Below the pieces are notes generated by a model, which was given only the letters and a program-made list of their open reading frames with translations, did not search any database and was not told where the DNA came from. A stretch of DNA of 64,000 nt, taken from contig NZ_LT629732.1 of NCBI RefSeq assembly GCF_900104745.1, forward strand, positions 3,521,981-3,585,980, written 5' to 3'. The DNA is from Actinopolymorpha singaporensis (GTDB lineage Bacteria > Actinomycetota > Actinomycetes > Propionibacteriales > Actinopolymorphaceae). Shown in pieces: positions 2,329-12,902 of the stretch. Made by a program: the position numbers and the translations under genes. The first letter of the stretch is position 1. The number at the start of each line of letters is the position of its first letter.

Positions 2329-3555
2329 CTACGGAGCCGTGTCGGTCCAGGTGACCGGGAGTTCGTGCACGCCGTAGATGTTCATGTCGGTCCGCAGTCT
2401 CACCTCGCCGGCGGGGATGGCGAGCGCGAGAGTGGGGAAGCGGCGGAGCAGCCCGGCGATGCCGGCGCGAAGCTCGATGCGGGCAAGTTGCTGGCCGAGA
2501 CACTGGTGGACGCCGTGGCCGAACGACAGGTGGCCGCGGGCGTTGCGCCGAAGGTCCAGGCTGTCCGGGTCGCCGAAACGCAGCGGGTCGTGGTTGGCGG
2601 CGAGCAACGAGACGACGACGGTGGATCCCTTGCCGATCGTCTCACCACACAGCTCGACGTCCTCGGTGGCGTAGCGGTAGAAGATGTCCGCCACGGACAG
2701 ATACCGCATGAGTTCCTCGACGGCACCGGGCAACAGGTCGGGGTCGGCACGCAGCTCGGCCAGCTGCTCGGGGTGCTCCAACAGGGCGAACGTGCCCAGG
2801 GCCAGCATGTTGGCGGTGGTCTCGTGGCCTGCCAGCAGCAGCAGGAAGGCAATGCCGACGAGCTCCTCGATGGAGAGGTCGTCGTCGCGGGCCAGGTCGG
2901 AGAGGATGTCCTCGCCGGGCTCGGCGCGTTTGCCGGTGACGAGTTCGGCGAGATAGCCGGTCATCGCGCCGTACGCCGCCATCTTCTCCGCAAGCGTCTG
3001 GTCCCTGACCAGGAACTTCGCCGAGTTGACCTGGAAGTTGGCGCGGTCCTCGTAGGGGACGCCGAGCAGCTCGCAGATCACCAGCGAGGGCACCGGTAGG
3101 GCGAACTCCCTGACCAGATCGACCGGCGGCGTGAGGCGAGCCAGCTCGTCCAGTTGCCGCTCGACGATGTCGATGATCTGTTCCTCCAGCAGCTTCATGC
3201 GCCGGACGGTGAAGGCCCCGACGAGCTTGCGCCGAAGCCGGCTGTGGTCGGGCGGGTCCATGGCGATGAACAGGCCCGGTACCTGCGGTGAGGGTTCGGT
3301 GGCGGCGGGCATACCGGGCGTCTCGTACGGTACGTGCACGACGCCGAGGTCCTGGCGGGAGCTGAACCGCGTGTCGGCCATCAGCCGGCGGACCGCCTCG
3401 TAGCCGGTGACCAGCCAGCCCTGGTGACCGTCGGGGAAGATCATCGGACTGACGGGCCTCACCTCGCGCAGCCGGGTGATCTCGCGCGGCGGGTCGAACG
3501 GGCCCGCGTCCCGCTCCATGGGCAGGCCGTGGGGAATGGAAACCGTCTGGCTCAT
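2329..3555 (-). CDS. Cytochrome P450
   Basis: A 408-residue soluble bacterial P450 of normal length. It has the I-helix oxygen-activation motif AGHETT near residue 240 and the heme-binding loop FGHGVHQCLG with Cys352 as the thiolate ligand. ATG 3555 (MSQTVSIPHG) is preferred over upstream in-frame starts because it gives the usual P450 N-terminus and has GAAGGGAC upstream. No ferredoxin or reductase gene is adjacent, so electrons must come from elsewhere. It is divergent from the SARP-type regulator; three 11-bp direct repeats at 3669-3696 lie in the shared upstream region, so control by that regulator is likely. It probably hydroxylates or tailors a secondary metabolite or xenobiotic; the substrate is unknown. 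Confidence 0.93.
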   Translation of the reverse strand: MSQTVSIPHGLPMERDAGPFDPPREITRLREVRPVSPMIFPDGHQGWLVTGYEAVRRLMADTRFSSRQDLGVVHVPYETPGMPAATEPSPQVPGLFIAMDPPDHSRLRRKLVGAFTVRRMKLLEEQIIDIVERQLDELARLTPPVDLVREFALPVPSLVICELLGVPYEDRANFQVNSAKFLVRDQTLAEKMAAYGAMTGYLAELVTGKRAEPGEDILSDLARDDDLSIEELVGIAFLLLLAGHETTANMLALGTFALLEHPEQLAELRADPDLLPGAVEELMRYLSVADIFYRYATEDVELCGETIGKGSTVVVSLLAANHDPLRFGDPDSLDLRRNARGHLSFGHGVHQCLGQQLARIELRAGIAGLLRRFPTLALAIPAGEVRLRTDMNIYGVHELPVTWTDTAP

Positions 3556-3647: not shown

Positions 3648-3668
3648 GGCCACGATCTCCGGCGGACC

Positions 3669-3696
3669 TGACACGGGCCTGACACGGTTCTGACAC
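3669..3696. promoter_or_regulatory. Candidate SARP operator: three TGACAC repeats at 11-bp spacing
   Basis: TGACAC begins at 3669, 3680 and 3691, each preceded by C and mostly followed by GG, so the period is exactly one helical turn (11 bp). Direct heptamers at 11-bp spacing are the known recognition pattern of SARP/AfsR DNA-binding domains. The array lies between the divergent P450 and the SARP-type gene and could control both. The same array occurs at 8609-8636. Confidence 0.65.
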
Positions 3697-3779
3697 CGGC
3701 CCTCCCGTCCCCGCCGCCGCACCGGCGGCACACCGAAGACCACGGAGGCCGGCCGGTCGACCATGGCAAAATCAGCCGG

Positions 3780-6700
3780 GTGCAGGTCGGGATACTGGGA
3801 CCGTTCGAGGTTCATACGGACGACGGCGCCCTGGCCGACGTGCCCGGCGCCCGGTTGCGCGCGCTGCTGGTCGCCCTCGCGCTCGACCCGGGCCGCGCGG
3901 TCCCGAAGGCCGCGCTGGTCGACTGGATCTGGGGCGAGCACCCGCCTGCCGACGCGGCGAACGCCCTGCAGCGGTTGGCGTCCCGGCTGCGGAAGGCGCT
4001 GCCGGCAGGGGTGGTCGAGGGGCAGCCGGACGGCTATCGCCTGAGGGTGGAGCCCGACGCCGTCGACGCCGTACGGTTCGAACGCCTTCTCGCCCGCGCC
4101 CGAGGCGACGAGGACCTCCGGCGGCTGCGCGAGGCGCTCGCTCTCTGGCGCGGAGCGGCCATGCAGGACGTCGGGTTGCCTGACAGCGCGGCGTTCGACG
4201 CGGCGGTGACGCGGCTGGAAGGGCTGCGCCTGGCAGCCCTGGAGGACCGGTTCGACGCGGAGATCGCCCTCGGCCACGGCGCGGAGCTGGTCACCGAGCT
4301 CACCGATCTGGTGGCCGCCCACCCGGTGCGCGAACGTCTCGTCTCCGCGTTGATGCGTGCGCTCGTCGCCACCGGCCGGGACGCAGAGGCGCTGCGCGTG
4401 TTCGAGCGGACGAGGGAGGTCCTGGCCGACGAACTCGGCGCCGACCCCTCGGCGGAGCTGTCCGCGTTGCACGTCGCGTTGCTGAGGGGCGAGGTGGGAG
4501 GCCGGGAGCAGCCTGTCAAGACCAACGTGCGTGCGGAGCTGACCAGCTACGTGGGCAAGGACGCCGATGTCAGCGCGGTCCGTGAGCTGCTCGCCGAGCA
4601 CCGGCTCACGACGCTGATCGGGCCAGGCGGCTCGGGCAAGACGAGGTTGGCAACCGAAACCGCACGCACGCTGGTCGGTGACCTGCCGGACGGCGCCTGG
4701 CTGGTCGAACTCGCCGTGGTCGGCACCGGCGGCGACGTGGCGCAAGCGACGCTTGACGCGATCGGGCTGCGGGACGCGCTGCTCGGTGACGCACCGGATG
4801 CGGACCCTGCGGATCGCGTCGTCGCCGCGATCCGCGACCGGGCGATGCTGCTGGTCCTGGACAACTGCGAGCACGTGATCGAGTCCGCCGCGACGTTCGC
4901 CCACCGGGTGCTCGGAGAGTGCCGGCGGTTGCGGATCCTCGCGACGAGCAGGGAACCACTCGGCATCACCGGTGAGGCACTGTGGCCGGTGGCGCCGTTG
5001 CTGCTGCCCGCCGAGGACGCCGACCCGGGCGAGATCGAGTCCGCCCCGGCCGTCCGGCTGCTGCGGGACCGGGCCGGCGCCGTGCGCAAGGAGCTCGCGA
5101 CCGACTCGGCAGACGGGCACACGCCGGCGACGTTGGCGCGCGTGTGCCGGGCACTGGACGGGATGCCTCTCGCGATCGAACTCGCCGCGGCCAGGTTGCG
5201 CACCATGTCGCTCGACCAGCTCGCCAACCGGCTCGACGACCGGTTCCGCCTGTTGACCGGCGGCAGCCGGACCGCGCTGCCCCGGCACCGCACGCTGCGT
5301 GCGGTGATCGACTGGAGCTGGGAGCTGCTCACCGACGCCGAACGCGTGCTCCTGCGCAGGCTCTCGGTGTTCTCCGGCGGAGCGAGCCTGGAAGCGGCCG
5401 AGGGAGTCTGCGCGGGCGGCACCGTCGAGGAGGACCAGGTGCTGGAGTTGCTGACCGCGCTGACGGAGAAGTCGCTGCTGGTCACCGAAGGCGACTCGGC
5501 GCTGCGCTACCGGATGCTCGGCACCATCAGGGAGTACGCCGGGCAGCGGCTCGCCGAGGCGGGGGAGACGGAGCCGGCCCGTCGCGCGCACCTGGCGTAC
5601 TTCACCCAACTCGCCGAAACCGCGGAGCCGCATCTTCGCCGCGCCGAGCAGCTGAGGTGGCTCGCCACGTTGGAGGCCGAGCACGACAACATCGCCGCCG
5701 CGATGCGCGGTGCGCTCGCGGCCGGCGACGCCCAGGCGGCGATGCGGCTCGCCGCGGGCGCCGGGTGGTACTGGTGGCTCGCCGGGCACAAGGCGGAGGG
5801 CCACGAGCTGATCATGGCCGCCACCGCCCTGCCCGGCGAGGTGACCGACGAGGTTCGGGCCACCGCGTACGCGTACGTCACCGCCTTCCTGACGTCGGGG
5901 CGGGAAAGTGATCAGCACCAGGCGGTGGAGTGGATCCACAGGGTGTACGAGCTGGGCGGGCGCGTCGAGCGCCGGCACCCGGCGGTGGGGCTCGTCGGTG
6001 CGCTGGAACGCATGCTGCAGGATCCGGACGCAGCCCTGTCGGCGTGGGAGCCGCTGCTGGCCGACGAGGACCCGTGGGCACGCGCCCTCGCCCGGTTGCA
6101 ACTCGGCAAGATGCGGATCCAGCTCGGCCGGAAAGGGCCGGAAGCCGACGCCCACCTGCAGAAGGCGCTCTCGGAGTTCCGGGCGCTCGGGGAACGCTGG
6201 GGCATCTCGTTCGCGCTGACCGAACTGGCCGACCTGATCGCCATGCGCGGCGACTTCACCAGTGCGTGCGAACACTACGAGCACGCGATCGCGGTCGTCA
6301 CCGAGGTCGGTGCGGTCGAGGACGTCGTACGCATGCGGTCCCGGCAGGCCCAGCTGTACTGGCTGTCGGGCGACGAGGAGTCGGCGGCTGCGGCCATGGC
6401 GGAGGCGCAGCGGTACGCCGACCAGGTCGGCTGGGCGAACGCGCTGACCGAGCTGGCCCTGGCCAGGGCGGAGCTCGCCCGCTGGAGCGGCGACGCCGAG
6501 CAGGCCCGCCGGCAACTCGACATCGCCACGGCCGTGCTGGGCAACGCCGCCGAGCGGGCAGGCATGCGCGCGATGCGACACGACCTGCTCGGCTACCTCG
6601 CCGACGATCTCGACGACGCACGCGAGCACCGCGCGGCGGCCCTCGACGCGGCAGCCGAGGCGGGCAACGCACCCCAGATCGCCCGGGCTCTGGTCGGGAT

Positions 6701-6920
6701 CGCGGAGCTGGCGCTGCGCCGGGATCAGTACGACCAGGCGGCCCGACTGCTCGCGGCGAGCACGAGCCTGCGCGGCCGGCCGGATCGTTCCCAACCCGAC
6801 GTGGCCCGGATCGAGGAGGCTGCCCGGCGTCGCCTCGGTGACGCGCGGTTCACCGAGGCGACGCGGGAGGGTGCCGGGGCGAGCTGGCAGGAGCTCGCCG
6901 CGGTCACGCTCGCTTCCTGA
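3780..6920 (+). CDS. AfsR/SARP-family transcriptional regulator with NB-ARC-type ATPase and TPR region
   Basis: A 1046-residue regulator. Residues 1-90 match the OmpR-like winged helix of SARPs and about 95-240 the bacterial transcriptional activation domain (BTAD). About 255-600 is an STAND ATPase with Walker A GPGGSGKTR near 281 and a Walker B-like LLVLDNCEHV near 360. The rest is alpha-helical TPR-like repeats. This is the AfsR architecture. The GTG at 3780 gives the typical SARP start (VQVGILGPFEV); no convincing Shine-Dalgarno sequence precedes it. Proteins of this class activate secondary-metabolite or efflux genes by recruiting RNA polymerase at 11-bp direct repeats; matching repeats lie upstream of this gene, the P450 and the ABC exporter. 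The 3' end overlaps the convergent permease gene by 17 bases. Confidence 0.92.
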   Translation: MQVGILGPFEVHTDDGALADVPGARLRALLVALALDPGRAVPKAALVDWIWGEHPPADAANALQRLASRLRKALPAGVVEGQPDGYRLRVEPDAVDAVRFERLLARARGDEDLRRLREALALWRGAAMQDVGLPDSAAFDAAVTRLEGLRLAALEDRFDAEIALGHGAELVTELTDLVAAHPVRERLVSALMRALVATGRDAEALRVFERTREVLADELGADPSAELSALHVALLRGEVGGREQPVKTNVRAELTSYVGKDADVSAVRELLAEHRLTTLIGPGGSGKTRLATETARTLVGDLPDGAWLVELAVVGTGGDVAQATLDAIGLRDALLGDAPDADPADRVVAAIRDRAMLLVLDNCEHVIESAATFAHRVLGECRRLRILATSREPLGITGEALWPVAPLLLPAEDADPGEIESAPAVRLLRDRAGAVRKELATDSADGHTPATLARVCRALDGMPLAIELAAARLRTMSLDQLANRLDDRFRLLTGGSRTALPRHRTLRAVIDWSWELLTDAERVLLRRLSVFSGGASLEAAEGVCAGGTVEEDQVLELLTALTEKSLLVTEGDSALRYRMLGTIREYAGQRLAEAGETEPARRAHLAYFTQLAETAEPHLRRAEQLRWLATLEAEHDNIAAAMRGALAAGDAQAAMRLAAGAGWYWWLAGHKAEGHELIMAATALPGEVTDEVRATAYAYVTAFLTSGRESDQHQAVEWIHRVYELGGRVERRHPAVGLVGALERMLQDPDAALSAWEPLLADEDPWARALARLQLGKMRIQLGRKGPEADAHLQKALSEFRALGERWGISFALTELADLIAMRGDFTSACEHYEHAIAVVTEVGAVEDVVRMRSRQAQLYWLSGDEESAAAAMAEAQRYADQVGWANALTELALARAELARWSGDAEQARRQLDIATAVLGNAAERAGMRAMRHDLLGYLADDLDDAREHRAAALDAAAEAGNAPQIARALVGIAELALRRDQYDQAARLLAASTSLRGRPDRSQPDVARIEEAARRRLGDARFTEATREGAGASWQELAAVTLAS

Positions 6921-7647
6921 ACGTCGAACGCGCCCAGACGTACCCGACGATCGCGATGCCGGCGCACCAGGCGACGGCGATCACCGCATCACCGGGCGAA
7001 GGTGCGCCGTTGAGCAGCCCCCGCAGGGTTTCGATGATCGGCGTGAACGGTTGGTACTCCGCGAACTGCCGTACACCCGGCCCCATCTTCGCAGCCGGCA
7101 CGATCGCGCTGCTGAAGAACGGGAGCATCACCAGCGGCACCGAGGCGAGGCCGGCCGTCTCCGGGGACTTCGCCGCCAGTCCCAGAGCGACCGTGAGCCA
7201 GCCGACCGCGAGGCCGAGCAGAACGACGATGCCCACCGCGCCGAGCCAGTCGAGAAGACCCGCAGACGGCCTGAACCCCAGCGCGAAGGCCACTCCCACG
7301 AGAGCGCCGACGGCGACCAGGTTGGTGAGCACGCTGGCGACGACGTGACCGGTCAGCACCGCGCCGCGGGACACGTCCATGACCTTGAACCGGTTGATGA
7401 TGCCCCTCGTCAGGTCGGCGTTGACAGCCGTCGCCACCGAGCCCAGTCCGTAGCAGACGGCCAGCAGCATCAGACCCGGCGTCGCGTAGTCGACGTAATC
7501 GACCCCGACGCTGAACGCGTCGCCGAGCATGTAGACGAACATCAGCATCACCACGACCGGCATCAGGACCGCGTTGAACACCGTCATCGGGTTCCGGGCG
7601 ACGTGCTTGAAGTTGCGGCGCAACATCACCATCGAGTGGGACTTCAT
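6904..7647 (-). CDS. ABC-2 type transporter permease (drug-resistance DrrB-like)
   Basis: A 247-residue membrane protein with about six hydrophobic helices and the ABC-2 permease pattern (N-terminus MKSHSMVMLRRNFKHVARNP, then PVVVMLMFVYMLG). It starts at ATG 7647, inside the stop of the ATP-binding gene (ATGA overlap), so the two are translationally coupled and form one exporter, probably with two copies of each subunit. DrrAB-type exporters remove hydrophobic drugs or export the host's own metabolite. The 3' end overlaps the SARP gene by 17 bases on the opposite strand. Confidence 0.9.
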   Translation of the reverse strand: MKSHSMVMLRRNFKHVARNPMTVFNAVLMPVVVMLMFVYMLGDAFSVGVDYVDYATPGLMLLAVCYGLGSVATAVNADLTRGIINRFKVMDVSRGAVLTGHVVASVLTNLVAVGALVGVAFALGFRPSAGLLDWLGAVGIVVLLGLAVGWLTVALGLAAKSPETAGLASVPLVMLPFFSSAIVPAAKMGPGVRQFAEYQPFTPIIETLRGLLNGAPSPGDAVIAVAWCAGIAIVGYVWARSTFRKRA

Positions 7648-8585
7648 TTCGCTGCTACCTCCGTGGCGTGGCCCGTCAGGGCGAGGAAAACGTCGTCGAG
7701 ATCGGGAGTGTGGACGGAGAACTCCTCGGCACTGAGCGAGTACTCGTCGAGCCTGTCCAGTAAGGCCCGCAGCGCCCTCGTTCCGCCGTCGCCGGGAACC
7801 CGAAGCGCCAGCGCATCCTCGTCCCGTATGGAGTCGGAGAGGACCAGCGCTGCCGCGTCGAGTTCCGCAGCGGTGGCGAACCGGAGCCGGACGCAGGCAC
7901 CGGGCAGCCGGCGCTTGAGCTCGCCGGCAGTGCCCTGGGCGACCAGGCGGCCCTGGTCGAGCACCGCGATCCGGTCGGCGAGCTGGTCGGCCTCGTCGAG
8001 ATACTGCGTGGTCAGGAAGATCGTCACGCCGTCGGCGACCAGCTCCCGGACGATCGACCACATGGTGCGCCGGCTGCGCGGATCAAGGCCCGTCGTCGGC
8101 TCGTCCAGGAAGATGATCCGCGGGTTGCCGACGAGCGTCATCGCCAGGTCGAGCTTGCGGCGCATGCCTCCGGAGTACGTCGAGACGGGTTTTCGTGCAG
8201 CCTCCGCGAGATCGAAGCGCTCCAGCAGATCGGTGACGATCCGCCTACTCCGCTTGGCGGGGACCGGGGCGAGGTCCACCATCAGCTGGAGGTTCTCCTG
8301 GCCGGTCAGCAGCTCGTCCACAGCCGCGAACTGACCGGTGACCCCGATCGCCGCGCGTACCGCCCTGGCGTCGGTCGCGACGTCGTGTCCGGCGACGCGG
8401 ACCGTGCCGCTGTCGGCGTTGATCAACGTCGTCAGGATGTTCACCATCGTCGTCTTTCCGGCACCGTTCGGGCCGAGCAGGGAGAAGATCGTTCCCGTGG
8501 GTACGTCGAGGTCGATGCCGTCGAGCACGACCTTGTCCTTGTAGGCCTTCCGCAGTCCACAGACCGCGATCGCTGAAGTTGTCAT
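7644..8585 (-). CDS. ABC transporter ATP-binding protein (daunorubicin-resistance DrrA-like)
   Basis: A 313-residue ATPase with Walker A GPNGAGKTT, signature YSGGMRRKLDLA, Walker B IIFLDEPTTGLD, and the C-terminal extension typical of DrrA-type subunits (about 310-330 residues). ATG 8585 gives MTTSAIAVCGLRKAY; an upstream extension lacks domain content. It energises the permease encoded immediately downstream. Three TGACAC-type repeats at 11-bp spacing lie 24-51 bases upstream, the same arrangement as beside the SARP gene, so SARP activation of this two-gene operon is likely. Confidence 0.93.
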   Translation of the reverse strand: MTTSAIAVCGLRKAYKDKVVLDGIDLDVPTGTIFSLLGPNGAGKTTMVNILTTLINADSGTVRVAGHDVATDARAVRAAIGVTGQFAAVDELLTGQENLQLMVDLAPVPAKRSRRIVTDLLERFDLAEAARKPVSTYSGGMRRKLDLAMTLVGNPRIIFLDEPTTGLDPRSRRTMWSIVRELVADGVTIFLTTQYLDEADQLADRIAVLDQGRLVAQGTAGELKRRLPGACVRLRFATAAELDAAALVLSDSIRDEDALALRVPGDGGTRALRALLDRLDEYSLSAEEFSVHTPDLDDVFLALTGHATEVAAK

Positions 8586-8608
8586 GCGGCGACTCTCGCC
8601 GGTCGCCC

Positions 8609-8636
8609 TGACACAGACCTGACCTCGCCCTGACAC
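8609..8636. promoter_or_regulatory. Candidate SARP operator: three TGAC repeats at 11-bp spacing before the ABC exporter
   Basis: TGACAC, TGACCT and TGACAC begin at 8609, 8620 and 8631, exactly 11 bp apart and in the same orientation relative to the downstream minus-strand gene as the array at 3669-3696. The array sits just upstream of the exporter start at 8585, where a SARP would contact the promoter. Confidence 0.65.
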
Positions 8637-8728: not shown

Positions 8729-8790
8729 GGATGAGACCCAGTCGGTACGCAGGGTTCACCGATTTCGGTTGGTTGCGAGGAGATCGGGTG

Positions 8791-10428
8791 GTGATACGCA
8801 TGGTGCGTCGACCGGCGACCCACGACAGTGCAGTCGAGAGCCAACGGGAAGGGCTGACCCGCCGTGCGCTCCTGCACCGGTCTGGAGTCGCGGCGGCGGT
8901 CTTCTCCGTCGGCGCCTGCAGTTCCGGATCGGGTGAGCCGGAGGGGCCGAAGAAGGGGACGACACCTTCCGGAAGCCCGAACCGCAAAGGATCAGACCGC
9001 AAGCCGCTCGCGCCCCCTGCGTCGTTCAAGGAGGCTCCTGTGCTCGCCGCACAGGTGAGGCAGGGCACGCTGCCACCGGTGGAGAAACGCCTTCCGGAAA
9101 GCCCCTACGTCGTGCCGCACAACCGGCTCGAGCCGGGCAACTACGGCGGCACCCTGAGGATGATGCTGCCGGCACTGACAACGCCCAGATGAAGCAGTAC
9201 ATGTACGGCCACTCACCATTGCGGTGGCTCAACGACGGCCTCGACATCGGCCCGGCCTGGTCGAGAGCTGGGAGTCCAACGAGGACGCGTCGGAGTGGAC
9301 GCTGCACTTCCGCAAGGGACTGAAGTGGTCCGACGGCCGGCCGTGGACCACCGCGGACGTCATGTTCTGGTGGGAGGACATGGTCCTCAACGAGGACCAC
9401 CCCGAGGTGCCCCCGGACGAGGCGAAGTCCGGCAAGGGCACGCTCATGCAGATGAGCGCGCCCCACGACTTCACGATCGTGATGAAGTTCGACGCGGCGC
9501 CCCGCACCGCTGACCGCCGACCGGCTCGCCATGTGGGTCAAACGGGGGAGCGGACCCGGCTGGATGGAACCGAAGCACTACATGAAGCAGTTCCACCCGC
9601 GTTACAACAAGTCCGTCCCCAAGGACTGGGCCAGCGCCGACGGCGAGTTCGAGAAGAAGCGCAACTGGCAGTTGAACCCCGTCAACCCGACCATGACAGG
9701 CTGGCGGCTGAAGTCGTACAAGGAAGGCCGTCAGCTCACCTGGGAACGCAACCCCTACTACTGGTGTGTCGACCGGAAGGGCAACCAGCTTCCCTACATC
9801 GACACCCTCACGGTCGGAGCAGTGCAGAACCCTGAGGTCGCCAAACTGCATATCCAGCAGGGCAAGCTCGACTATCTCATCGGCTCGTTCATGGGCGTGG
9901 TACTCGGTTCCGTCAGGCTCTCTCACACGCCTTCATGTCCAACTCCGGCTGGGGCGTCGGTGACGGCCCGAACTGCCTGGTCTACCCCAGTGGCTCGTCC
10001 CGTTGGAGCCGAGCCGGTGGGCGCCGCTGGAAGGGCAGTACTACAACGTGCGGGGCACTCCGGAAGAAGGCAAGGAAGAAGACGTCGATCCCTTCAAGCG
10101 GACGCCGCCCCGGATGGCCCCCGAGCCGGGTGGACCGGTCGAGCGGCTCTGGAAGCTGCACGACCAGAGCAAGACCGAGGCCGACGAACTCGCTCGGCAC
10201 CGCCTCGTGTGGGAGATCACGAAGATCCACATCAAGGAGGGGCCGTTCTTCCAGGGCTCGGTCTCGAACTCACCCGAGATCGTGCTCGTACACCAGGAAC
10301 TGAAGAACGTCCCCCGCCGGAACAACCTTGCCCAGGGCGGCTTCACCGCTCCCTGGATCCACCCCACACCGGCGGTCTACGACCCCGAGGTGATGTTCTG
10401 GTCCGCTCCGGAGAAGCACAAGGGCTGA
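8791..10428 (+). pseudogene. Decayed copy of the family-5 solute-binding lipoprotein gene
   Basis: This is a broken tandem duplicate of the intact gene at 10728-12902. A GTG at 8791 follows GAGGAG and opens a Tat lipoprotein N-terminus (GLTRRALLHRSG, then SVGACSSG with the lipobox Cys). By alignment with the intact copy I find a 1-base loss near 9175, a 1-base loss near 9256, a 4-base gain near 9495, a net loss of about 535 bp near 9930, and a further 1-base loss near 9990. Between these, stretches match closely (for example PGWMEPKHYMKQFHPRYNKS) and the C-terminus is conserved up to the stop at 10428. No full-length protein can be made. Either copying left a defective gene or the first copy decayed after duplication. 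Confidence 0.88.
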
Positions 10429-10727: not shown

Positions 10728-12902
10728 GTGGTGAAACGTATGGTCCGTCGAACAACGACCAACAACCCCGCAGGCGAGAACCAGCAGAAAGGGCTGACGC
10801 GTCGGAGTCTCCTGTACGGGTCCGCGGTCGCGGCCGCGGCCCTTTCCCTCGCCGGCTGTAACTCCAGCTCCGGCGGGCAGGAAGGCAGTAAGAAGACCGC
10901 GGCGAAGTCCGGAAGCGCGAACCGGAAGGGTTCGGCACGCAAGCCGCTCGCGCCCCCGTCGTCCTTCAAGGAAGCTCCCACGCTCGCCGCGCAGGTGAAG
11001 GCGGGGAAGCTGCCACCGGTGGAGAAGCGGCTCCCGGAGAAGCCGTACGTCGTTCCGCACAACTGGCTGGAGCCCGGCACCTACGGCGGCAACGTGCGGA
11101 TCATGATCCCTGCCACCGACGACGGTCAGCTCAAGGAGTACATGTACGGCCACTCCCCGCTGCGTTGGCTCAACGACGGCCTGGACATCGGGCCGGGACT
11201 GGTCGAGAGCTGGTCGTCCAACGCCGACGCGTCGGAGTGGACCCTGCACTTCCGCAAGGGGCTGAAGTGGTCCGACGGCCAGCCGTGGACCACCGCGGAC
11301 GTGATGTTCTGGTGGGAGGACATGGTCCTCAACGAACAGCACTCCGAGGTTCCACCCGACGAGGCCAAGTCGGGCAAGGGCACGGTCATGAAGATGACCG
11401 CACCGGACGACTACACGCTCGTGATGAAGTTCGACGCGCCCGCACCGCTGACCGCCGACCGGCTCGCCATGTGGGTCAACCGGGGCATCGGACCCGGCTG
11501 GATGGAACCGAAGCACTACATGAAGCAGTTCCACCCGCGTTACAACAAGTCGGTCCCCAAGGACTGGGCCAGCGCCGACGGTGAGTTCGAGAAGAAGCGG
11601 AACTGGCAGATCAACCCGGACAGCCCGACCATGACCGGCTGGCGGCTGAAGTCGTACAAGGAAGGCCGCCAGAGCACCTGGGAACGCAACCCCTACTACT
11701 GGTGCGTCGACCGGCAGGGCAACCAGCTTCCCTACGTCGACACGCTCACGGCCGCCGCCGTACAGAACCAGGAAGTCGCCAAACTCCAGATCCAGCAGGG
11801 CAAGATCGACTTCCTGGTCGGCGGCTTCATGGGCGTTTCGCTGAGCGACGTGTCGGGACTGAAGGCGGCGCAGAAGTCGAGCAAGACCGTACCCATCCTC
11901 TGGGACGCCGGCGACGGCACCGGGGCCGCGTTCTTCTTCAACTACGACTACTACGAGGAGAACCTCCGCAAGCTGATCCGGGAGCCGAAGTTCCGGCAGG
12001 CACTGTCGTTGGCGTTCAACCGCGACGACGCCCAGAAGACGATCTACTTCAACACCGGTGAGAAGACCACCGGAACGATGAGCACCAAGGCCATCGAGTA
12101 CCACGTCGACGACCAGGGCAAGCAGGTCTACAAGCAGTGGCGTGACAGCTACGTGAACCACGACCCCGAGAGGGCGAAGAAGATCCTCGACGAGCTCGGG
12201 GTGGTGGACAAGAATGGCGACGGCAAGCGGGAGGCGCCCGACGGCAGCAAGCTGATCATCCGGCTGCAGTACGCCTCCAACGTCGGCAACGACTACAAGA
12301 AGCTGAACGACCTGCTGGTGCGCGACTGGAAGGCGATCGGACTCGACGCTCGTCAGTTCCCCATCTCGCCGGAGGCGTACGGCACCGAGTGGAACACCGG
12401 CAAGCTCATGTCCAACTCGGGCTGGGGTGTCGGCGACGGTCCGAACTGCCTGGTCTACCCGCAGTGGCTCGTCCCGTTGGAGCCGAGCAGGTGGGCTCCG
12501 CTGGAGGGGCAGTTCTACAACGTACGTGGCACCCCGGACGAGCACAAGCAGAAGAACGTCGACCCCTACAAGCGGACACCACCCCGGATGGAGCCGGAGC
12601 CGGGCGGCCCGGTCGCGCGACTGTGGAAGCTGTACGACAAGAGCAAGACCGAGGTCGACGAGATGGGCCGGCACCGACTGGTGTGGGAGATGACGAAAAT
12701 CCACATCGAGGAAGGCCCGTTCTTCCAGGGTTCGGTGTCGAACGCGCCCTCGGTCATGCTCGCGCACCAGGAACTGAAGAACGTCCCCCGGAAGGAGAAC
12801 CTCGCCCAGGGCGGCTTCACCGCTCCGTGGATCCACCCGACACCGGCGGTCTACGACCCCGAGACGGTGTTCTGGTCGAATCCCGACCAGCACAAGGGAT
12901 AG
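10728..12902 (+). CDS. Tat-exported lipoprotein, ABC transporter family-5 solute-binding protein
   Basis: A 724-residue extracytoplasmic binding protein, longer than usual for the oligopeptide/nickel type (about 530-600). Residues 25-26 are the twin arginines (GLTRRSLLYGS), followed by a hydrophobic stretch and the lipobox LAGC with Cys44, so it is a Tat-exported lipid-anchored protein. The mature part has the family-5 features FRKGLKWSDGQPWTTADV and later ERNPYYWCVD. It would capture a peptide, sugar or similar solute, but no DppB/DppC/DppD-type genes are nearby, so it is an orphan that must use a distant transporter. The start lies in GTG-GTG; either may be used. A decayed tandem copy precedes it and a more distant paralogue is at 17574-19637. 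Confidence 0.9.
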   Translation: MVKRMVRRTTTNNPAGENQQKGLTRRSLLYGSAVAAAALSLAGCNSSSGGQEGSKKTAAKSGSANRKGSARKPLAPPSSFKEAPTLAAQVKAGKLPPVEKRLPEKPYVVPHNWLEPGTYGGNVRIMIPATDDGQLKEYMYGHSPLRWLNDGLDIGPGLVESWSSNADASEWTLHFRKGLKWSDGQPWTTADVMFWWEDMVLNEQHSEVPPDEAKSGKGTVMKMTAPDDYTLVMKFDAPAPLTADRLAMWVNRGIGPGWMEPKHYMKQFHPRYNKSVPKDWASADGEFEKKRNWQINPDSPTMTGWRLKSYKEGRQSTWERNPYYWCVDRQGNQLPYVDTLTAAAVQNQEVAKLQIQQGKIDFLVGGFMGVSLSDVSGLKAAQKSSKTVPILWDAGDGTGAAFFFNYDYYEENLRKLIREPKFRQALSLAFNRDDAQKTIYFNTGEKTTGTMSTKAIEYHVDDQGKQVYKQWRDSYVNHDPERAKKILDELGVVDKNGDGKREAPDGSKLIIRLQYASNVGNDYKKLNDLLVRDWKAIGLDARQFPISPEAYGTEWNTGKLMSNSGWGVGDGPNCLVYPQWLVPLEPSRWAPLEGQFYNVRGTPDEHKQKNVDPYKRTPPRMEPEPGGPVARLWKLYDKSKTEVDEMGRHRLVWEMTKIHIEEGPFFQGSVSNAPSVMLAHQELKNVPRKENLAQGGFTAPWIHPTPAVYDPETVFWSNPDQHKG

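Follow-up and report, generated by a model that had tools for sequence, protein, structure and literature searches.

Paired 11-bp repeat arrays as predicted operators of a large SARP-type activator linked to an exporter, a cytochrome P450 and a hydrolase in Actinopolymorpha singaporensis

A gene for a large SARP (Streptomyces antibiotic regulatory protein)-type regulator lies on a 64-kb stretch of the Actinopolymorpha singaporensis genome (contig NZ_LT629732.1, positions 3,521,981 to 3,585,980; in the following, "the window" denotes this whole stretch) and is accompanied by two arrays of direct repeats, one between the regulator and a divergent cytochrome P450 gene (array 1) and one just before a drug-type exporter operon (array 2). 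This raises the question of which protein recognizes the two arrays and which genes are controlled through them. Comparison across genomes makes it very probable that both arrays are operators of the adjacent large SARP activator, which would drive a regulon of exporter, P450 and hydrolase. The promoter elements concerned are:

3652–3657, minus strand: predicted P450-promoter −10 element GATCGT, which begins 39 nt away from the array start, a spacing also seen in relatives
3669–3696, minus strand: array 1, three 11-bp direct repeats, GTGTCAGaaccGTGTCAGgcccGTGTCAGgtcc towards the P450, whose promoter it would serve as activator operator
8592–8597, minus strand: predicted exporter-promoter −10 element GAGAGT, 6 nt before the ATG, leaderless geometry
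8609–8636, minus strand: array 2, three 11-bp direct repeats, GTGTCAGggcgAGGTCAGgtctGTGTCAGggcg towards the exporter

In array 1, the hexamer TGACAC occurs three times exactly, at 3669, 3680 and 3691 (3669–3696 reads TGACACGGGCCTGACACGGTTCTGACAC), and the units of array 2 start at 8609, 8620 and 8631 (8609–8636 reads TGACACAGACCTGACCTCGCCCTGACAC), the middle one being a degenerate TGACCT with two mismatches. The exact 11-bp period and the placement of both arrays, as given in a preliminary description of this locus, are borne out by letters and coordinates. The same description called the arrays identical, which the middle unit of array 2 contradicts, and placed them at both ends of the regulator gene, whereas array 2 in fact flanks the convergent exporter operon (6904–8585) on the side away from the regulator and not at an end of 3780–6920. 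Read on the minus strand, that is, in the direction of the genes that they face, both arrays give GTGTCAGG and share one architecture, namely three copies of GTGTCAGGnnn at 11 bp followed by a −10-like GAnnGT at a fixed distance. If +1 is set at the exporter ATG, array 2 has units beginning at −51, −40 and −29; 23 bases separate the array from this ATG, made up after the last 8-letter unit of 9 nt, GAGAGT and 6 nt. In array 1 the last unit is followed by 9 nt, GATCGT and a leader, and 83 bases lie between the other end of the array and the regulator start. At the ≤3 mismatches allowed, the window contains two array matches as compared to 0.06 expected from shuffles, and no further array beyond these two; the arrays exceed chance.

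A search of the whole genome (6.40 Mb) for the three-unit pattern returned three matches at ≤2 mismatches and none for the reversed pattern, and five as compared to two for the reversed pattern at ≤3 mismatches. The full architecture, three units plus −10 element, is found at three sites in the 6.4-Mb genome. The third array (G000:C1:1004815-1004842) lies outside the window, 51 nt before the ATG of an α/β-hydrolase gene. Here GAAGAT stands 9 nt behind the last 8-letter unit and ends 6 nt short of the start codon, so that all three sites of this genome have the same 9-nt gap between the last unit and the predicted GAnnnT, as expected of a SARP operator. Two adjacent GTGTCAG heptamers (≤1 mismatch) occur genome-wide only in array 1 and at the third site. 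Random occurrence of the repeat throughout the genome, named beforehand as an outcome that would speak against a regulon, is excluded by these counts; chance repeats are ruled out by the shuffles, the reversed-pattern controls and the genome-wide numbers taken together. The hydrolase is likewise preceded by an array at offset 51 in G002, G004 and G006 (86.5, 91.6 and 76.5 % identity), and in Nocardia xishanensis (L015) an 82 % identical homologue is found inside the module itself with its own array at offset 52. No solved relative of this hydrolase was obtained at an E value of 1e-15, and its NCBIfam matches (haloalkane dehalogenase, enol-lactonase, macrolide esterases and others) all remain below cut-off. 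Additional targets were sought with a two-unit plus −10 pattern, which proved too noisy beyond the three known sites. Four further regions, 58 kb in all, take in five of the genome's six other BTAD matches; no 7/7 triple of any 7-letter word at 11 bp was detected in them, and one stretch (in L181) showed three overlapping 6/7 triple matches.

Do the arrays accompany the regulator in other organisms? The best 80 of at least 582 confirmed regulator relatives in named genomes (68–81 % identity over the best segment; Micromonospora, Nocardia, Amycolatopsis, Kribbella, Streptomyces and others) were scanned up to 7 kb on each side. At ≤3 mismatches, 113 matches were counted (10, 43, 38 and 22 with 0, 1, 2 and 3 mismatches, respectively) as compared to none for the reversed pattern; merging of overlapping registers leaves 103 distinct arrays, with at least one in 76 of the 80 loci. 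P450 orthologues (≥70 % identity, n = 37) lie divergent upstream of the regulator in 22 cases, downstream in 14 and elsewhere in one, and a correctly oriented array is located 48–87 nt upstream of 35 of them (20/22, 14/14 and 1/1, respectively). In the two exceptions (L079 and L092) the array is situated further upstream, before a ferredoxin open reading frame that precedes the P450 (assigned by Pfam for L079 and by translation only for L092). The array thus travels with its target gene wherever the P450 lies. In L062, regulator, P450 and array are found on plasmid SNP1 of Streptomyces nigrescens HEK616, and the module can accordingly be plasmid-carried.

The exporter gives an equally regular picture. 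An array (≤3 mismatches) lies within 200 nt of 58 of the 64 exporter ATPase orthologues, and at least 13 of the 18 motif letters are present at 48–52 nt in 62 of them. As judged by alignment, the array start precedes the ATG by 51 nt in 34 cases and by 52 nt in 26 (60/64), a geometry that would fit leaderless transcription. Of the two orthologues outside the 62, L058 does have an array, but a truncated alignment put its start codon too far inside the gene, and L055 has the exporter directly behind an array-bearing P450. The distance from array to −10 element stays constant while the exporter ATG shifts by one. The A of GAnnGT is conserved in every exporter array (62/62) and in 34/35 P450 arrays, and the same counts hold for its T, as opposed to the three-letter spacers between the units, which hold at most 0.64 bit per position (background 35 % G, 35 % C). 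A fourth GTGTCA unit (≥5/6 letters) is found 12 bp upstream in 37 of the 62 exporter arrays (for example, in L021, L033 and L082; degenerate in the window) and in none of the 35 P450 arrays; in one of the 62 it lies at 11 bp instead. For the PimR operator, PMC5930380 describes the addition of a fourth heptamer as of no substantial help. Further genes with arrays encode an MMPL transporter with a full array at offset 51 or 52 in four genomes of one family (L117, L119, L121 and L123; Pfam assignment on L117), DUF4097 proteins (L026, L049, L072, L080 and L130), a CPBP-type protease (L073), a GtrA-like protein (L019) and ferredoxin.

The association extends beyond these loci to the class. Among 394 genomes, the full pattern (three units plus GAnnGT, ≤3 mismatches) occurs in 42 and its reversed counterpart in two. 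With genome classes assigned by hand, 38 genomes were placed in the regulator clade, comprising 32 with a match of ≥63 % identity (a split match in G376) and six with a best match of 53–58 %, which were included because their loci also carry arrays. The full pattern was found in 31 of the 38 clade genomes (25/32 at ≥63 % and 6/6 with only a 53–58 % relative) as compared to 11 of the 356 others (Fisher p 4e-30), and when the 53–58 % group is left out, the split is still 25/32 versus 17/362 (p 3e-22). The units alone, at ≤1 mismatch, mark 22 of the 394 genomes (12/38 in the clade, 10/356 outside, p 4e-8; reversed in one). At least one of the 11 pattern genomes outside the clade (G308) has a plain tandem repeat. 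G102, which has no close regulator orthologue, carries a three-unit array without mismatches that lies 52 nt upstream of a DrrA-like gene (L125/L169; 51 % identity) and may represent a more distant clade using the same site. In the taxonomic family of A. singaporensis, the three-unit pattern (≤2 mismatches) is present in seven of eight genomes, of which the match in G003 resembles an unrelated tandem repeat, and the reversed pattern in none. The arrays, their register and their conservation together with regulator and targets are established by sequence, and the proposal of the preliminary description that a small SARP regulon with P450 and exporter as targets exists gains strong support from this comparison, in which the arrays figure as predicted operators.

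That description had also suggested that the regulator perhaps controls itself, a point on which the following element upstream of its start bears:

3764–3772, plus strand: TGGCAAAAT, promoter-like element of the regulator gene, 16 nt before the GTG

Array 1 might double as the promoter of the regulator gene or might mediate autorepression, and with 83 bases between the array and the regulator start such a side effect would be physically feasible. However, arrays near the regulator track the divergent P450: an array within 400 bp upstream was found in 22 of 22 loci with such a P450 and in one of 58 without, and this single locus (L053) has a divergent open reading frame of its own at offset 51. 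The upstream arrays, array 1 included, point away from the regulator, none runs in the regulator's direction in the window, and the regulators have a different element in common. Across the 80 regulator genes (75 GTG and five ATG starts) the consensus TGGCARRAT appears at about −16 to −8, with positions singly common to 51–77 of the 80 (−13 falls below the listing threshold and −10 is split between G and A) and with signs of a one-base shift in some loci. TGGCAAAAT is likely the corresponding promoter element of a leaderless regulator gene. We consider a second role of array 1 in the regulator's own expression improbable, and autoregulation through the arrays finds no support in distribution, orientation or this separate common element.

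PhoP is widely distributed in actinobacteria, and it, or another widespread regulator of 11-bp repeats, might bind the arrays, with the SARP gene being incidental. That such repeats can be shared is indicated by PhoP binding to the afsS promoter over the AfsR site, as described in PMC10972967; however, a near-ubiquitous regulator would not produce a split as sharp as that between genomes with and without the regulator clade, nor do only three full sites in this genome agree with it, and we regard this explanation as highly improbable. It is hardly more probable that the SARP regulator binds the arrays as a repressor or as a drug-released brake. The sign of control is not given by sequence alone, and Atr32, a medium-sized SARP, is described as a negative regulator (PMC10972967); on the other hand, the arrays lie upstream of a −10 element whose first T is missing, in the register known from the activating AfsR box, and a repressor site would have no need of a constant spacing of 39 nt between array start and −10 element in exporter and P450 promoters alike. 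More weight, though still with the outcome that we deem it unlikely, attaches to the idea that the module belongs to a biosynthetic cluster, with exporter and P450 serving production and self-protection rather than the handling of foreign compounds. The best-known role of SARPs is the activation of antibiotic biosynthesis (PMC10936776; PMC10972967), and the P450 is closest to CYP105-type enzymes. Against this, no synthase was seen among the array-bearing genes inspected (flanks of ≤7 kb, not systematically annotated), which instead encode the exporter, P450, hydrolase, ferredoxin, MMPL transporter, DUF4097, CPBP-type protease and GtrA-like proteins, and the hydrolase is unlinked to the module in this genome.

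Several observations weigh against the arrays being operators of the SARP activator. Apart from the degenerate middle unit of array 2, the P450 leader is unusually long in this genome, with the ATG 141 nt from the start of array 1 as compared to 48–87 nt, mostly 74–77 nt, in 35 relatives. Four of the 80 loci lack an array at ≤3 mismatches; two of these (L059 and L074) contain neither exporter nor P450, and the other two (L069 and L075) carry weaker arrays (14/18 letters) 51/52 nt before the exporter. Likewise, seven of the 32 genomes with a regulator of ≥63 % identity have no full pattern at this threshold, and the relatives are not independent samples. The array without its −10 element is less specific, and the two-unit plus −10 search of the genome (≤3 mismatches) returned 31 matches as compared to eight for the control.

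If the arrays act as operators of the SARP activator, neighbouring protomers of its N-terminal winged-helix/BTAD domain would occupy consecutive 11-bp units, with one protomer for each turn of the helix. The last unit would lie just upstream of a deficient −10 element (GAnnGT), and no −35 hexamer is recognizable. The bound regulator, expressed from a promoter of its own, would then recruit RNA polymerase as AfsR does at afsS, and the ATPase/TPR part would presumably gate this activity on a chemical signal. The predicted regulon comprises three promoters here, those of the DrrAB-type exporter operon, the P450 and the unlinked α/β-hydrolase, with exporter and hydrolase mRNAs predicted to be leaderless, and its products would export, oxidize and hydrolyze a toxic compound. 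Binding, activation, leaderless start, defence role and inducer are the parts that we infer. The combination of export, oxidation and hydrolysis suggests a response to toxic compounds, and the arrangement, which is repeated across many soil actinobacteria, appears to constitute a small regulon for chemical defence.

On a wider scale, it is conceivable, and we suggest this tentatively, that large SARPs of this clade act across many actinobacterial genera as chemical-threat sensors (STAND-type ATPase/TPR plus SARP) that, by means of an interchangeable promoter cassette, run an intrinsic multidrug-response regulon rather than being switches of antibiotic production. The cassette would be built from GTGTCAG units (three or four, the last one reaching to about −19), GAnnGT and often a start codon at +1, and its targets would be DrrAB exporter, MMPL exporter, P450 with or without ferredoxin, α/β-hydrolase, DUF4097 and CPBP-type protease. 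Should this be true, the regulon could be read from sequence in any actinobacterial genome. Already the pairing of a regulator clade with an operator in a fixed promoter geometry makes the likely targets of a widespread large-SARP clade listable from sequence, and it suggests that efflux and detoxification, rather than production, can be under SARP control. No recognized description of GTGTCAG/TGACAC repeats as a SARP site was encountered in open-licence PMC full text, which is weak evidence of absence; the repeat letters appear there, among other papers, in a TetR operator table (PMC10933834) and, in PMC7480387 and PMC4057263, in primers only.

The genes of the locus are the following:

2329–3555, minus strand: cytochrome P450, 408 aa, best solved match CYP105AS1
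3780–6920, plus strand: large SARP-type regulator, 1046 aa; winged helix (27–76), BTAD (95–235), P-loop ATPase region, TPR
6904–7647, minus strand: ABC-2 type permease, DrrB-like, convergent with the regulator
7644–8585, minus strand: DrrA-type ABC ATPase with its ATG at 8585; first gene of the exporter operon

The regulator has the N-terminal winged helix (Trans_reg_C/ODB) followed by BTAD that defines the SARP family (PF00486 at 27–76 with 26.5 bits, cut-off 26.2; PF03704 at 95–235 with 121.3 bits), as well as the C-terminal nucleotide-binding and TPR domains and the length of about 1000 aa typical of large SARPs. TPR_12 scores over its cut-off and AAA_22 slightly under (25.6 of 27). The 3′ ends of the convergent regulator and permease genes overlap by 17 bp (6904–6920). 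On the P450 side, a phosphoesterase-family gene (PF04185; 2–745, minus strand) at the window edge is followed by an MFS transporter gene (841–2205) between phosphoesterase and P450; considered as a module member, the latter had no homologue at an E value of 1e-20 in the 80 loci and was left out. At 8788–10425 lies a broken copy of the family-5 solute-binding protein gene that is present in intact form downstream at 10728–12902; the copy has homology in more than one frame and lacks a stretch equivalent to about residues 376–560.

Among known systems, AfsR of Streptomyces coelicolor, for which structures of the DNA-binding part exist, has the same large SARP layout of winged helix, BTAD, P-loop ATPase and TPR; the SARP domains align over residues 2–237 of the regulator (E 2.3e-35) and the P-loop region remains alignable as far as residue 365. 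The regulator is nevertheless not an AfsR equivalog (191.4 bits with the NCBIfam model, cut-off 1430), and its targets differ, being exporter, P450 and hydrolase here. In PMC10936776, SARP operators are characterized as 11-bp direct repeats with the 3′ repeat about 8 bp from the −10 element, and the AfsR box at afsS spans −40 to −19. Both this box and the arrays consist of 11-bp direct repeats, the last at −29 to −19, next to a poor −10 element, and the exporter array (units at −51, −40 and −29) has the same register. The repeats themselves differ, AfsR using two CGTT(T/C)A-type units as compared to three GTGTCAG units here and four in many relatives. In AfsR, contacts with the repeat are made by T88 and R92, of which T88 is described as strongly conserved among SARPs (same source). 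In the alignment, these residues correspond to R65 and R69 of the regulator, where Arg occurs in 77 and 80 of 81 sequences, respectively (AfsR numbering counted by hand, in agreement with AfsR Q48, W74, P79, R94 and K95). The changed recognition residue R65 fits the changed repeat and may set its specificity.

Operators of PimR-type SARP-LAL regulators are similar in that they contain three heptameric direct repeats with 4-bp spacers, but differ in the repeat (CGGCAAG), in having no overlap with the −35 box and in having a regulator gene as the unique target, as given in PMC5930380. The exporter resembles the DrrAB daunorubicin-type operons, with an ATPase over the cut-off of the DrrA subfamily model TIGR01188 (326.8 versus 312.45 bits) and a permease that matches DrrB models below cut-off. 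Summed up, a SARP acting on 11-bp repeats follows a known principle, to which this clade would add its own repeat, an altered recognition helix, probable leaderless promoters and a regulon of the detoxification type.

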